Of a stretch of 64,000 bases of DNA, positions 43,468 to 56,596 are shown in pieces (within the stretch, counting starts at the first letter, position 1; each line of letters starts with the position of its first letter). The notes below the pieces were generated by a model. It was not told the origin of the DNA. It made no database searches and was given only the letters and a program-made list of their open reading frames with translations. The DNA lies in the NCBI GenBank assembly GCA_016207515.1, contig JACQPN010000015.1:1-64000 (forward strand), written 5' to 3'. A program made the position numbers and the translations under genes. Source of the DNA: Euryarchaeota archaeon (GTDB lineage: Archaea > Thermoplasmatota > SW-10-69-26 > JACQPN01).

Positions 43468-43563
43468 GGGTCAGCGCTCCAGTTAGCCATCATCATTTGC
43501 GGACGGTCGCGACCGGCTGCAAACTCAGCTGACCCGTTTGTCATCATTCCCTGTAACTGGAGC
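43468..43563. repeat. Nested inverted repeats around CGGTCGCGACCG
   Basis: GGGTCAGC (43468-43475) pairs with GCTGACCC (43528-43535). GCTCCAGTTA (43476-43485) pairs with TAACTGGAGC (43554-43563). A 12-base perfect palindrome, CGGTCGCGACCG, sits at 43504-43515, flanked by TTTGC/GCAAA. The two outer pairings interleave, so they cannot both form as simple stems. Confidence 0.6.
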
Positions 43564-52645: not shown

Positions 52646-52660
52646 TTGATTCCCGTGGGC

Positions 52661-53791
52661 ATGTTCGATTTTCTCAAGAAGAAACTCAAGACGTTCGAAG
52701 AGGATGTCGCAAAGACCCCGTCTTTTGAAGTCGTCGAGAAGAAGACCTCCGGGTCGCCGCAACCTTCCGAGAAGGCGCCGGCGGGCGAGACCAGGCACGC
52801 TTCGACTAGATTGCCCGAGAACTTTGCGGCGCCTTCTCCAAGGTCGGTGCCGTCACCTCCGGGAGCCGGTTCTGCTGCAAGGACGCCTTCGGCGACGCCA
52901 AAGACGAACGCGCCGTCACCGGTCGAGCCGCCGCGCTCCGAAGGCGGGAAACTCATTCCACGCGACCGTTTGGATGAGCTGCTTTACGACCTTGAACTAA
53001 CACTCATGGAGTCGGACGTCGCGATGGAGGTCGCGGGCACGATTCGTGAGAACCTCAAGAAGTCGCTTTCGGGGCTCAGGGTGTCAAGCCCGCTTGACGC
53101 CCAAAAGAAGGTCGAGGCGGCGTTGCAAAGCGCCATCCTCGGCGTCCTTTCCGACAAGGTGTTCGACTTCGACCGGTTCATCCTCGAAGCGAAGAAGCCG
53201 GCGGTCATCATGTTCGTGGGCGTAAACGGAACGGGGAAGACCACGGTCGTCGCCCGCCTCGCACATCGGTTGCGCGAGAACGGGTACTCGTCCGTCGTCG
53301 CGGCAAGCGACACTTTCAGGGCCGGCGCGATAGAGCAATTGGAGAAACATGCGGACAACCTCGCGATAAAGATCGTGCGCCACGAAGCCGGTGGCGACCC
53401 CGCGGCCGTCGCATATGACGCGATCGAGCACGCGAAATCGCGTTCCAAGGACGTCGTCCTCATCGACACCGCCGGGCGCATGCAGACGAACACCAACCTC
53501 ATGGACGAGATGAAGAAGATCAAGAGAGTCTCGAAACCCGACCTCGTCGTCTTCGTCGGCGACGCACTGGCGGGTAACGACGCGGTGGAGCAGGCGAGGA
53601 AGTTCGACGCCGCCGTCGGCATAGGCTGCGTGATGCTTACCAAGGTGGACACCGACAGCAAAGGAGGCGCCGCGATAAGCATCGCGCACGCGGTGGGAAA
53701 ACCGGTCGCGTTCCTCGGCGTGGGACAGGATTACAAGGACCTCATCCCCTTCGACCCGCAGTGGTTGGTGGGGCGGATCTTCGAGAATTGA
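52661..53791 (+). CDS. ftsY: Signal-recognition-particle receptor FtsY
   Basis: A 376-residue SRP GTPase. A short N-terminal motif (FDFLKKKLKTFEEDV), an acidic Pro/Ser-rich linker, an N domain of four helices (about 100-175), and the G domain follow. GTPase motifs are GVNGTGKTTVVARLA (G1), DTFRAGAIEQLE (G2), DTAGRMQTNTNLMDEMKK (G3), TKVDTDSKGG (G4) and FLGVGQDYKDLIPFDP (G5 region). It docks SRP-ribosome complexes at the membrane. The ATG at 52661 is preferred (family start), with TTG 52646 as alternative. Confidence 0.95.
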   Translation: MFDFLKKKLKTFEEDVAKTPSFEVVEKKTSGSPQPSEKAPAGETRHASTRLPENFAAPSPRSVPSPPGAGSAARTPSATPKTNAPSPVEPPRSEGGKLIPRDRLDELLYDLELTLMESDVAMEVAGTIRENLKKSLSGLRVSSPLDAQKKVEAALQSAILGVLSDKVFDFDRFILEAKKPAVIMFVGVNGTGKTTVVARLAHRLRENGYSSVVAASDTFRAGAIEQLEKHADNLAIKIVRHEAGGDPAAVAYDAIEHAKSRSKDVVLIDTAGRMQTNTNLMDEMKKIKRVSKPDLVVFVGDALAGNDAVEQARKFDAAVGIGCVMLTKVDTDSKGGAAISIAHAVGKPVAFLGVGQDYKDLIPFDPQWLVGRIFEN

Positions 53792-54187
53792 GGCAGCCGC
53801 CGCGTTCCTAGCGCCGGGCGGGGTCGTTCGTGGCGCTAGCATGCCTCCGTCGGCTTCGTTGCGTCGTTCTTGTGACCGGGTCGGAGGATCGGCGTCCGAA
53901 AAACCCCGCGCCAGTTTGCACGTAGCGAGTCGTCACCTGGGCCCGGTCATCGATGCCGTACAGCCGTCCCCGCGTGACCGAAGGTCGCGCCGCGTATGCA
54001 TGGCGTCTCTCGTTTGAAGGTCTTGGTCCGTAGGACCCCGCCCAACGCGTACAGCAGTGAGTCGTCTTGCCCGGGCCGGGTTGGCGACGCTGTACGGTCG
54101 CCCCGCGCGACCGTAGGTCGCGCCGCGTGTGCACGGAGCGAGCCGTGCTGCGACACCCTTTTTAACCATCACTCCATAGCCGCGGAC
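53792..54187. other. Noncoding region before valS with structured direct repeats
   Basis: 396 bases between ftsY and valS. It contains two imperfect direct repeats at 53892-54005 and 54025-54140 and a TATA element (CTTTTTAACC near 54157) for valS. Frames across it are basic and not protein-like. It may encode small RNAs, or serve as a regulatory leader. Confidence 0.55.
53892..54140. repeat. Two imperfect ~115-base direct repeats with conserved hairpin
   Basis: The copies (53892-54005, 54025-54140) are about 132 bases apart and share GAGTCGTC, a CCCGG-rich middle and a GGTCGCGCCGCGT block. Each contains a hairpin of 8 pairs and a 3-base loop: GCGTGACC-GAA-GGTCGCGC (53972-53990) and GCGCGACC-GTA-GGTCGCGC (54105-54123). 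The difference in the stem (a T-G pair in copy 1, C-G in copy 2) keeps pairing, as in structured RNA. Confidence 0.6.
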
Positions 54188-56596
54188 GTGTCCGGGACGC
54201 CCGGGGAAACCCCCGCCTCTCCAACCACACGACCACAGCTTGAGCCAAAGCTCAAGGAGAAGGGCTGGTCCGTGGCCTTGGAAAAGGAGATTTTCGAGCG
54301 CCTTCGTGGGAAGACTTTCGAGCCCACTTGGAAAACGGCCGTCGACCATGAGAAGGTTTTTGCCATCGACACGCCGCCGCCCTACCCTTCCGGCAAATGG
54401 CACATCGGGGCCGTGGCCCACTACGCCCTCATCGATGTGATTGCAAGATCGCGGCGCATGCTCGGCGAGAAGGTGCTCTTTCCCTGGGGCCTCGATCGTA
54501 ACGGCATCAACATCGAACTTGTCGTCGAGAAGAAGTACGACAGGAAGATGCATACTTTCGACCGGCAGGAGTTCCTCGACCTTTGCCGGAAGGAGATCGA
54601 GCCTTTCAGCGCGGGGCTCATCCAGACGGCGCGACGCATCGGCATGAGTTGCGACTTCGAGAATGGGTACCAGACCGACAGTCCCGCCTACCGGGCGATG
54701 ACCCAAAAGACGTTCATCGAACTCTGGAACAAGGGGCTCGTGGTAGAAGACCTGCGGCCGAACAGCTATTGCCCGGATTGCAAGACGACGATAGCGGACG
54801 CCGAGGTCTATTATGACGAGCGGGAGACGATCCTCTACCACGTGAGGTGGGACCTGGAGCGGCCGGTCAAGGCCGGAGCGGCCGGCGGCACCGTGGACCA
54901 CTTCGTCATCGCGACGACACGGCCCGAATTGATCGCGGCCTGCCAGGTCACACTGGTCCATCCGGAAGACGAACGTTACCAGGGCCTCGCGGGCCATGGC
55001 CAAAAAGTGAAGGTGCCCACCTACGAACGGACGGTCGAGATCAGGGCGCACACGACGGTCGACAAGGAGTTCGGCACGGGCGCCATGATGATCTGCTCCT
55101 ACGGCGACTTCACGGATGTCGCCATGTTCCGGGAGCTATCGCTTCCCGCTATCAACGCCATCGGGATGGATGGACGGATGACGGCCGACGCGGGCCACTT
55201 GCATGGCCTTTCGGTGAAACAGGCGCGAGCGGCCATCGTGGAGAAGTTGAAGGCCGAAGGACGCATCGTCAAAGAGGAGAAGAAACAGCAGAAGGTCCCC
55301 ATCTGTGAGAGGTCGCGCACTCCTATCGAGATAATCTCGCTCAAGGAGTGGTACGTGAAACAGGTAGACGCACTCGACGCCCTCCGGGGGATCGCTGAAA
55401 AGATCGACTTCCACCCGGACAAGCACCGCGGCATCCTCCTCGATTGGGTGAACTCCATCACGATCGATTGGCCAGTGTCGCGCAGGCGCTACTTCCACAC
55501 CGAGATCCCCGTCTGGTACTGCAAGTCATGCGGCGAAGCACACGTGCCCAACCCAGGCCCATATTACCAGCCGTGGAAGCAAGCGGCCCCGTCGGAAATC
55601 TCGAAGTGCCGAAAATGCGGCCATGCGGAATTCGCCGGGGAGGAGAAGGTGTTCGACACGTGGATGGATTCGAGTGCCTCGAACCTCTACGTCCTCCATT
55701 ATCACGACGATCCCGCGTGGTTCAACCGCCAGTTCCCTTGCTCGTTGCGTCCACAGGGCCGTGACATCGTCCGCACATGGCTCCATTACACGCTGCTCAA
55801 AAGCCACTTGATACTGGGGAAGCCAGGCTTCGAGCACGTTTGGATAACAGGCCTTGGCATGGACGAGAAAGGCCGGAAGATGTCAAAGAGCCTCGGCAAC
55901 GTCATAGATCCGGACGAGGTCCTCAACGCCCAGGGAGCCGATGCCTTCCGCTTCTGGGCGGCGAGTGAATGCACCATCGGGGACGACTTCCGCATCTCGA
56001 AGGACCGCATCAGCGGTGCCGGGAAGTTCCTCACGAAACTCTTCAACGTGGCGCGGTTCATCAGTTCCTTCGACGCTCCACCGGAAAGACCGGCCGAACT
56101 CCATCCGGTCGACGAGTGGATCCTCGCCGAGGTGAACAAGTTGACGCGGGAGTGCCGGGACGGCTACGAGGGGTTCGACTTCTTCACGCCGGCGAACGCA
56201 CTCAGGAATTTCGTTTGGAACGTCTTCGCCCCGCATTACCTGGAAATGGTCAAGGGGCGCGCCTACGACAAGGACCCGAGCGCCCTCTGGACTCTTCACG
56301 AGGCGCTTCGCCGGGTCCTCTTGAACCTTGCACCTGTCTGTCCCTTCAGCACGACCCACGTCCACCACGCCCTTTACGACTCTGACGTCCACGACTCAAG
56401 GCTCCCGGACCCCATCGCCGGGGTAAAGGATTCGCTCGTCGAATTCACGGCCAAGGTCGAGGCGTTCAACTCCGAGGTCTGGAAGATCAAGAAGGACAAG
56501 TGCCTCCCCCTGAACGCGCCGCTATCTGGAGTACAGGTCCCGGCCGAACTCGCGGCGTTCAAGGACGCGTTCGTCGGCATGCACAGACTCCAATGA
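54188..56596 (+). CDS. valS: Valyl-tRNA synthetase
   Basis: An 802-residue class I synthetase. The N-terminal block IDTPPPYPSGKWHIGAVAHY carries the HIGH motif as HIGA, and LDRNGINIELVVEKKY follows, as in Thermoplasma-type ValRS. The editing domain (CP1) is present near residues 170-330 with TTRPELIAACQV. CP1/CP2 zinc cysteines occur as CPDC and CKSC/CRKC. RPQGRDIVRTWLHYTL and KGRKMSKSLGN (KMSKS) are intact. The GTG at 54188 fits a leaderless start, about 27 bases after the TATA-like CTTTTTAACC. The frame runs back to 53996 but that part lies in the repeat region. Confidence 0.94.
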   Translation: MSGTPGETPASPTTRPQLEPKLKEKGWSVALEKEIFERLRGKTFEPTWKTAVDHEKVFAIDTPPPYPSGKWHIGAVAHYALIDVIARSRRMLGEKVLFPWGLDRNGINIELVVEKKYDRKMHTFDRQEFLDLCRKEIEPFSAGLIQTARRIGMSCDFENGYQTDSPAYRAMTQKTFIELWNKGLVVEDLRPNSYCPDCKTTIADAEVYYDERETILYHVRWDLERPVKAGAAGGTVDHFVIATTRPELIAACQVTLVHPEDERYQGLAGHGQKVKVPTYERTVEIRAHTTVDKEFGTGAMMICSYGDFTDVAMFRELSLPAINAIGMDGRMTADAGHLHGLSVKQARAAIVEKLKAEGRIVKEEKKQQKVPICERSRTPIEIISLKEWYVKQVDALDALRGIAEKIDFHPDKHRGILLDWVNSITIDWPVSRRRYFHTEIPVWYCKSCGEAHVPNPGPYYQPWKQAAPSEISKCRKCGHAEFAGEEKVFDTWMDSSASNLYVLHYHDDPAWFNRQFPCSLRPQGRDIVRTWLHYTLLKSHLILGKPGFEHVWITGLGMDEKGRKMSKSLGNVIDPDEVLNAQGADAFRFWAASECTIGDDFRISKDRISGAGKFLTKLFNVARFISSFDAPPERPAELHPVDEWILAEVNKLTRECRDGYEGFDFFTPANALRNFVWNVFAPHYLEMVKGRAYDKDPSALWTLHEALRRVLLNLAPVCPFSTTHVHHALYDSDVHDSRLPDPIAGVKDSLVEFTAKVEAFNSEVWKIKKDKCLPLNAPLSGVQVPAELAAFKDAFVGMHRLQ

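Follow-up and report, generated by a model that had tools for sequence, protein, structure and literature searches.

Tandem repeat and hairpins between ftsY and valS

In the window, by which we mean the whole 64,000-nucleotide stretch of DNA analysed, ftsY and valS lie in the same orientation and are separated by a gap of 396 bp (Table 1). The DNA comes from an uncultured archaeon, probably of the Thermoplasmatota, judging by the relatives identified. Gene calls here and near the related loci are mechanical, with Pfam support for the main neighbours. None of the relatives inspected shows ftsY next to valS. A TATA-like box is located 28–30 nt ahead of the probable GTG start of valS, downstream of both repeat copies, and such a box immediately ahead of valS is also found in relatives.

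Between the two genes, we observe a unit of about 110–130 bp in two imperfect copies that follow each other head to tail, with a core offset of 133 nt. Their local alignment score of 75, compared to a mean of 19 and a maximum of 33 in 1000 shuffles, bears out the tandem arrangement described in an earlier note on this DNA, and the repeat is the strongest close direct repeat within the window. A 36-nt core is 89% identical between the copies. In the 3′ part of the repeat (alignment columns 78–126), 8 of 49 columns differ, compared to 24 of 63 in the part preceding it. A protein-coding repeat was rejected, as the offset of 133 is not divisible by 3 and no convincing reading frame is present.

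Each copy contains an 8-pair hairpin, as the earlier note had stated, which we term HP2. The complete element consists of the HP2 of copy 2 and a further hairpin, HP1. The range 53892–54140 given before holds the repeat but cuts through HP1, the most conserved part, which lies partly beyond it. Here, a tandem duplication has taken in the element and some of its flanking sequence; the 3′ arm of HP1 is missing from copy 1. The inverted pair GTACAGC (54049–54055)/GCTGTAC (54089–54095), likewise pointed out before, is present in copy 2, but it is not kept in copy 1, where the arms read GCACGTAGC/GCCGTAC.

Table 1. Features of the ftsY–valS region, in window coordinates.
Feature	Position	Strand	Description
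ftsY	52646..53791	+	Pfam SRP54 GTPase domain, 3.8e-74; upstream of the element and co-directional with it; start provisional
Copy 1 of the tandem unit	53893..54003	+	HP2-type hairpin and 5′ arm of HP1 (GCATGG)
HP2 of copy 1	53972..53990	+	GCGTGACC-GAA-GGTCGCGC; 8 pairs, of which one is U-G in plus-strand reading; C(GAA)G triloop
Copy 2 of the tandem unit	54025..54136	+	tandem alignment
Longer hairpin closed by GTACAGC/GCTGTAC	54049..54095	+	predicted fold; copy 2 only
HP2 of the complete element (copy 2)	54105..54123	+	GCGCGACC-GTA-GGTCGCGC; 8 pairs, C(GTA)G triloop
25-mer AGCACGGCTCGCTCCGTGCACACGC	54125..54149	-	HP1 and linker in minus-strand reading; conserved; used for the pattern search of 390 genomes
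HP1	54131..54148	+	GCACGG-AGCGAG-CCGTGC; letters conserved at related loci
valS TATA-like box	54157..54166	+	includes a T5 run 10 nt past HP1; backed by boxes in relatives
valS	54188..56596	+	Pfam tRNA-synt_1; probable GTG start, short leader or leaderless

Perfect 8-bp hairpins are no more frequent in the window than expected by chance, with 26 observed and 27 in shuffles. The predicted fold of copy 2 on the plus strand beats 194 of 200 shuffles, while that of copy 1 is no different from its own shuffles. For the consensus fold of both copies, the whole unit performs no better than column shuffles (z −0.7); a sub-block picked afterwards reaches z −2.3 on the plus strand. The earlier note took the retained pairing as a change that preserves structure. 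This is not supported by the copies, since the sole change in the stem, U-G versus C-G, is one-sided and not compensatory, and the only double-sided pair change of the consensus fold lies outside the 8-pair hairpin. With the whole-unit z-score, we conclude that a comparison of just these two copies is no proof of a selected structure.

Two further stems were seen in the gap. A 9-bp stem TACGGTCGC/GCGACCGTA at 54093–54115 is found in copy 2 only; it overlaps HP2, and the two are mutually exclusive, which makes it a possible alternative fold. Right behind the ftsY stop, at 53808–53839, a perfect 8-bp hairpin CTAGCGCC...GGCGCTAG encloses a loop of 16 nt. Its short partial likeness to an isochorismate-synthase-like open reading frame in genome G003 is probably due to chance.

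Related loci and conservation of the two hairpins

The comparison set comprised 390 genomes of the phylum, which, apart from the source genome itself, are all from outside the source organism's own family. The two-copy model gave nothing convincing among class-level relatives and, over the 390 genomes, one outside match in G062, a distant Thermoplasmatota genome of another family, with an E-value of 0.006 per genome. Spread over 390 genomes, a match of this kind is expected by chance. The matched locus shares the 25-mer AGCACGGCTSGCTCCGTGCACACGC (window 54125–54149, minus strand), which extends past the two-copy model. Searched with up to 3 mismatches, the 25-mer has four matches only in the 390 genomes: the window and C15:101107 in the source genome (G000), and one each on contigs C9 and C24 of G062. 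The reversed 25-mer, used as a control, has none in the same set. Because it is partly palindromic, the 25-mer carries less information than its length suggests.

At all four strong loci, an 8-pair triloop HP2 stands beside HP1, with stem letters that differ between loci. Two of these loci, L123 and L122, were found by the 25-mer pattern alone, and both carry, in the same position, an 8-pair hairpin with this type of loop. The background for hairpins of comparable loop type is about 0.07% per comparable stretch, as determined on contig C15 of G000. In the alignment of the four HP2 sequences, 32 of 32 cells are paired and three of the eight pairs are changed on both sides. By this alignment, HP2 shows the double-sided changes with retained pairing that characterize a conserved structured RNA. 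Its covariation score is reached by 3 of 500 shuffles, and structures slid along the alignment are 29–57% paired across both helices. These counts are derived from the four strong loci; the A7 alignment, which is fitted to the model and contains weak matches, was set aside. A claim of covariation is beyond the reach of two paralogous copies, and the distant loci are decisive here. Selection for structure, as proposed earlier, thus finds support in the double-sided HP2 changes at four loci in two genomes, but not in the two copies from which it had been deduced.

In contrast to HP2, which is kept as structure, HP1 is kept as sequence. Its plus-strand consensus is GCACGG-AGCSAG-CCGTGC, with one pair broken in L123, and a short linker of the GCGTGT type joins it to HP2. 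The HP2 loop reads C(GNA)G on the plus strand at the four strong loci and in copy 1 (GTA, GAA, GCA, GCA, GAA). With its constant G and A around a variable letter, the loop has what a sheared G-A triloop requires, a form which it may adopt. We discarded a reading of HP2 as a minus-strand UNCG tetraloop, since only three bases stay in the loop when the stem is fully paired (UNC on the minus, GNA on the plus strand). Wobble pairs give conflicting evidence on the strand: copy 1 has its U-G pair on the plus strand, and at the C24 locus of G062 there is a pair that reads as G-U on the minus strand only.

We found no such element in the relatives searched at order and class level; it can therefore not be a general 3′-end signal. 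The large genome searches scored a limited number of candidates per genome, so weak members may escape. A weak fifth candidate comes from G151, a genome of the same family as G062, where it immediately follows the stop codon of rpl15e. Copy 1 scores weakly (23.6 bits, E 0.11) under model R2, a model built from the loci that score best under it. Weak model matches in G293 and G382 apparently fall within a carB-like reading frame, and HP1-like matches in G002 and G041 come without HP2; both sets were rejected. A borderline model match in the source genome (L141, G000:C5:27225, E 0.9) has a loosely similar layout of two hairpins and could be a distant member. With Rfam 15, no family exceeds the gathering threshold in window 53780–54260 or matches at the G062 locus. 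The best sub-threshold E-values in the window are 2.1 and 9.2, the latter a minus-strand hint of Guanidine-III that we attribute to chance.

Placement behind genes and candidate functions

On the plus-strand reading of the window, the element is found 3′ of a co-directional gene at four of four strong loci, and these genes are unrelated: ftsY in the window, a PadR regulator at L123, an HhH-GPD glycosylase at L119 and uppS at L122. At L122, the element lies between convergent genes, and the facing NMNAT-like gene also ends beside it. The explanation we prefer, as a tentative one that is quite possible but short of probable, is that the double stem-loop would belong to the 3′ untranslated region of the gene that precedes it, ftsY in the window, as a patchily distributed element of low copy number. 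On the coding strand, HP2 is followed by the short linker and HP1. Transcripts of the upstream gene would end with the element, which may set their 3′ end or protect it against 3′-to-5′ decay. The specificity of the 25-mer, the association of HP1 with HP2, the double-sided changes in HP2 and the co-directional upstream genes argue for this explanation. Against it stand the restriction to four strong loci in two genomes, with four of four orientations being a small sample, the conflicting wobble pairs, the U-tract seen in the window only, and the facing gene that ends beside the uppS element. That these loci represent a new family of 3′-UTR double stem-loops in Thermoplasmatota, copied across unrelated genes and lineages, appears unlikely; in such a family, HP1 would be bound by protein, HP2 would serve as a structural stop, and no U-tract would be needed to define or shield mRNA 3′ ends.

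Termination in Methanococcus maripaludis is directed by U-tracts to which aCPSF1 binds, and a hairpin is not strictly needed in archaeal terminators (PMC8716108). The element shares with these aCPSF1 (FttA) signals the position at gene 3′ ends and, in the window, the T5 run after HP1. The signals described are U-tracts, however, while the conserved part of the element is two hairpins. At the remaining three strong loci, HP1 is not immediately followed by a U4 run, so the element differs from a plain aCPSF1 U-tract signal. Similar to bacterial intrinsic terminators, it places a G+C-rich stem-loop behind a gene, but it has two hairpins with the sequence-conserved one last, its host is archaeal, and a U-run directly after the stem is found at none of the four strong loci. 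With archaeal H/ACA and C/D guide RNAs, it would share the character of a small structured noncoding RNA, but it has neither an Rfam match nor a recognisable K-turn, ACA pocket or C/D layout. Structured noncoding elements in uncultured Thermoplasmatota are poorly described. Archaeal mRNA 3′ ends are thought to form without any need for hairpins. Two hairpins that recur together at the ends of genes would offer a testable case of structure-assisted 3′-end formation. Alternatively, the pair may be a small mobile palindrome.

This alternative is the main rival because of the patchy and dispersed distribution, although we regard it as unlikely too. The element would then be a REP- or MITE-like DNA palindrome whose single-stranded hairpins are recognised by a transposase-like enzyme and which is tolerated behind genes, where an insertion causes little damage. 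The sites at unrelated genes, the patchiness in the phylum, the near-identity of HP1 across families and the partial tandem copy in the window are all consistent with this. C(GNA)G loops also form very stable DNA mini-hairpins, of a kind used in DNA aptamer work, which counts in the same direction. Bacterial REP/REPIN palindromes (PMC3116915) are likewise short, dispersed, intergenic and often located behind genes. REP families, however, usually have many dispersed copies per genome, whereas we find two strong copies each in G000 and G062, and neither a target-site duplication nor a REP foot motif was noticed in an unsystematic look. The phage set yielded no match, and in viral contigs HP1 is not matched exactly; plasmid matches span no more than 66% of the query, with 82–90% identity, and the three inspected lack the hairpin pair. 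We judge it distinctly unlikely that the region is neutral intergenic DNA that was duplicated locally in tandem, its resemblance to other loci being chance among G+C-rich hairpins. Two copies alone give no significant structure, noncoding DNA of G062 and G002 contains other hairpins whose loops are similar, and palindromy reduces the effective information of the HP1 match. The 25-mer result compared to its reversed control and the presence of HP2 at loci found through HP1 alone speak against chance.

HP1, an 18-bp palindrome just upstream of TATA-like boxes of valS and of the downstream gene at L123, could be an operator for a dimeric regulator, which we consider very unlikely. It ends 9 nt ahead of the valS box and lies about 25 nt ahead of the TATTTAA box at L123, and it is conserved in its letters and not in pairing alone. 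However, no promoter lies at the convergent genes of L122, no AT-rich box is visible downstream of the element at L119, and HP2 keeps its pairing without its letters, unlike a sequence-specific DNA site. A leader of valS, as suggested in the earlier note, is contradicted by the TATA-like box and probable GTG start that valS has downstream of both copies, and between the convergent genes of L122 a leader or promoter role is unfitting. The valS upstream regions of G001, G003 and G005 do not contain such an element. The other suggestion made there, tandem small RNAs, we consider very unlikely. It would agree with two structured units within one intergenic gap and with the fold of copy 2, but the fold of copy 1 resembles those of its shuffles, with half of HP1 missing, we noticed no AT-rich box of promoter type ahead of either copy on the plus strand, the related strong loci are single and directly behind genes, and Rfam gives no match.

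Other hairpins and a possible C/D-box RNA

An intergenic hairpin of 16 perfect base pairs, GGCGGGAGCATTTTGC-GGA-GCAAAATGCTCCCGCC, is located at G000:C15:160573 (L158) and likewise has a loop of the C(GNA)G type. At three loci of G062 (L161, L162 and L140) and one of G002 (L128), noncoding DNA contains several G+C-rich hairpins with loops of the C(TNC)G type, which are perhaps a general gene-end feature in these two genomes. Within the window, positions 43469–43551 on the minus strand match the Rfam family sR3, a C/D-box sRNA, with 41.1 bits compared to a gathering score of 41. This match lies between minus-strand open reading frames and contains two ATGATGA-like boxes on the minus strand.
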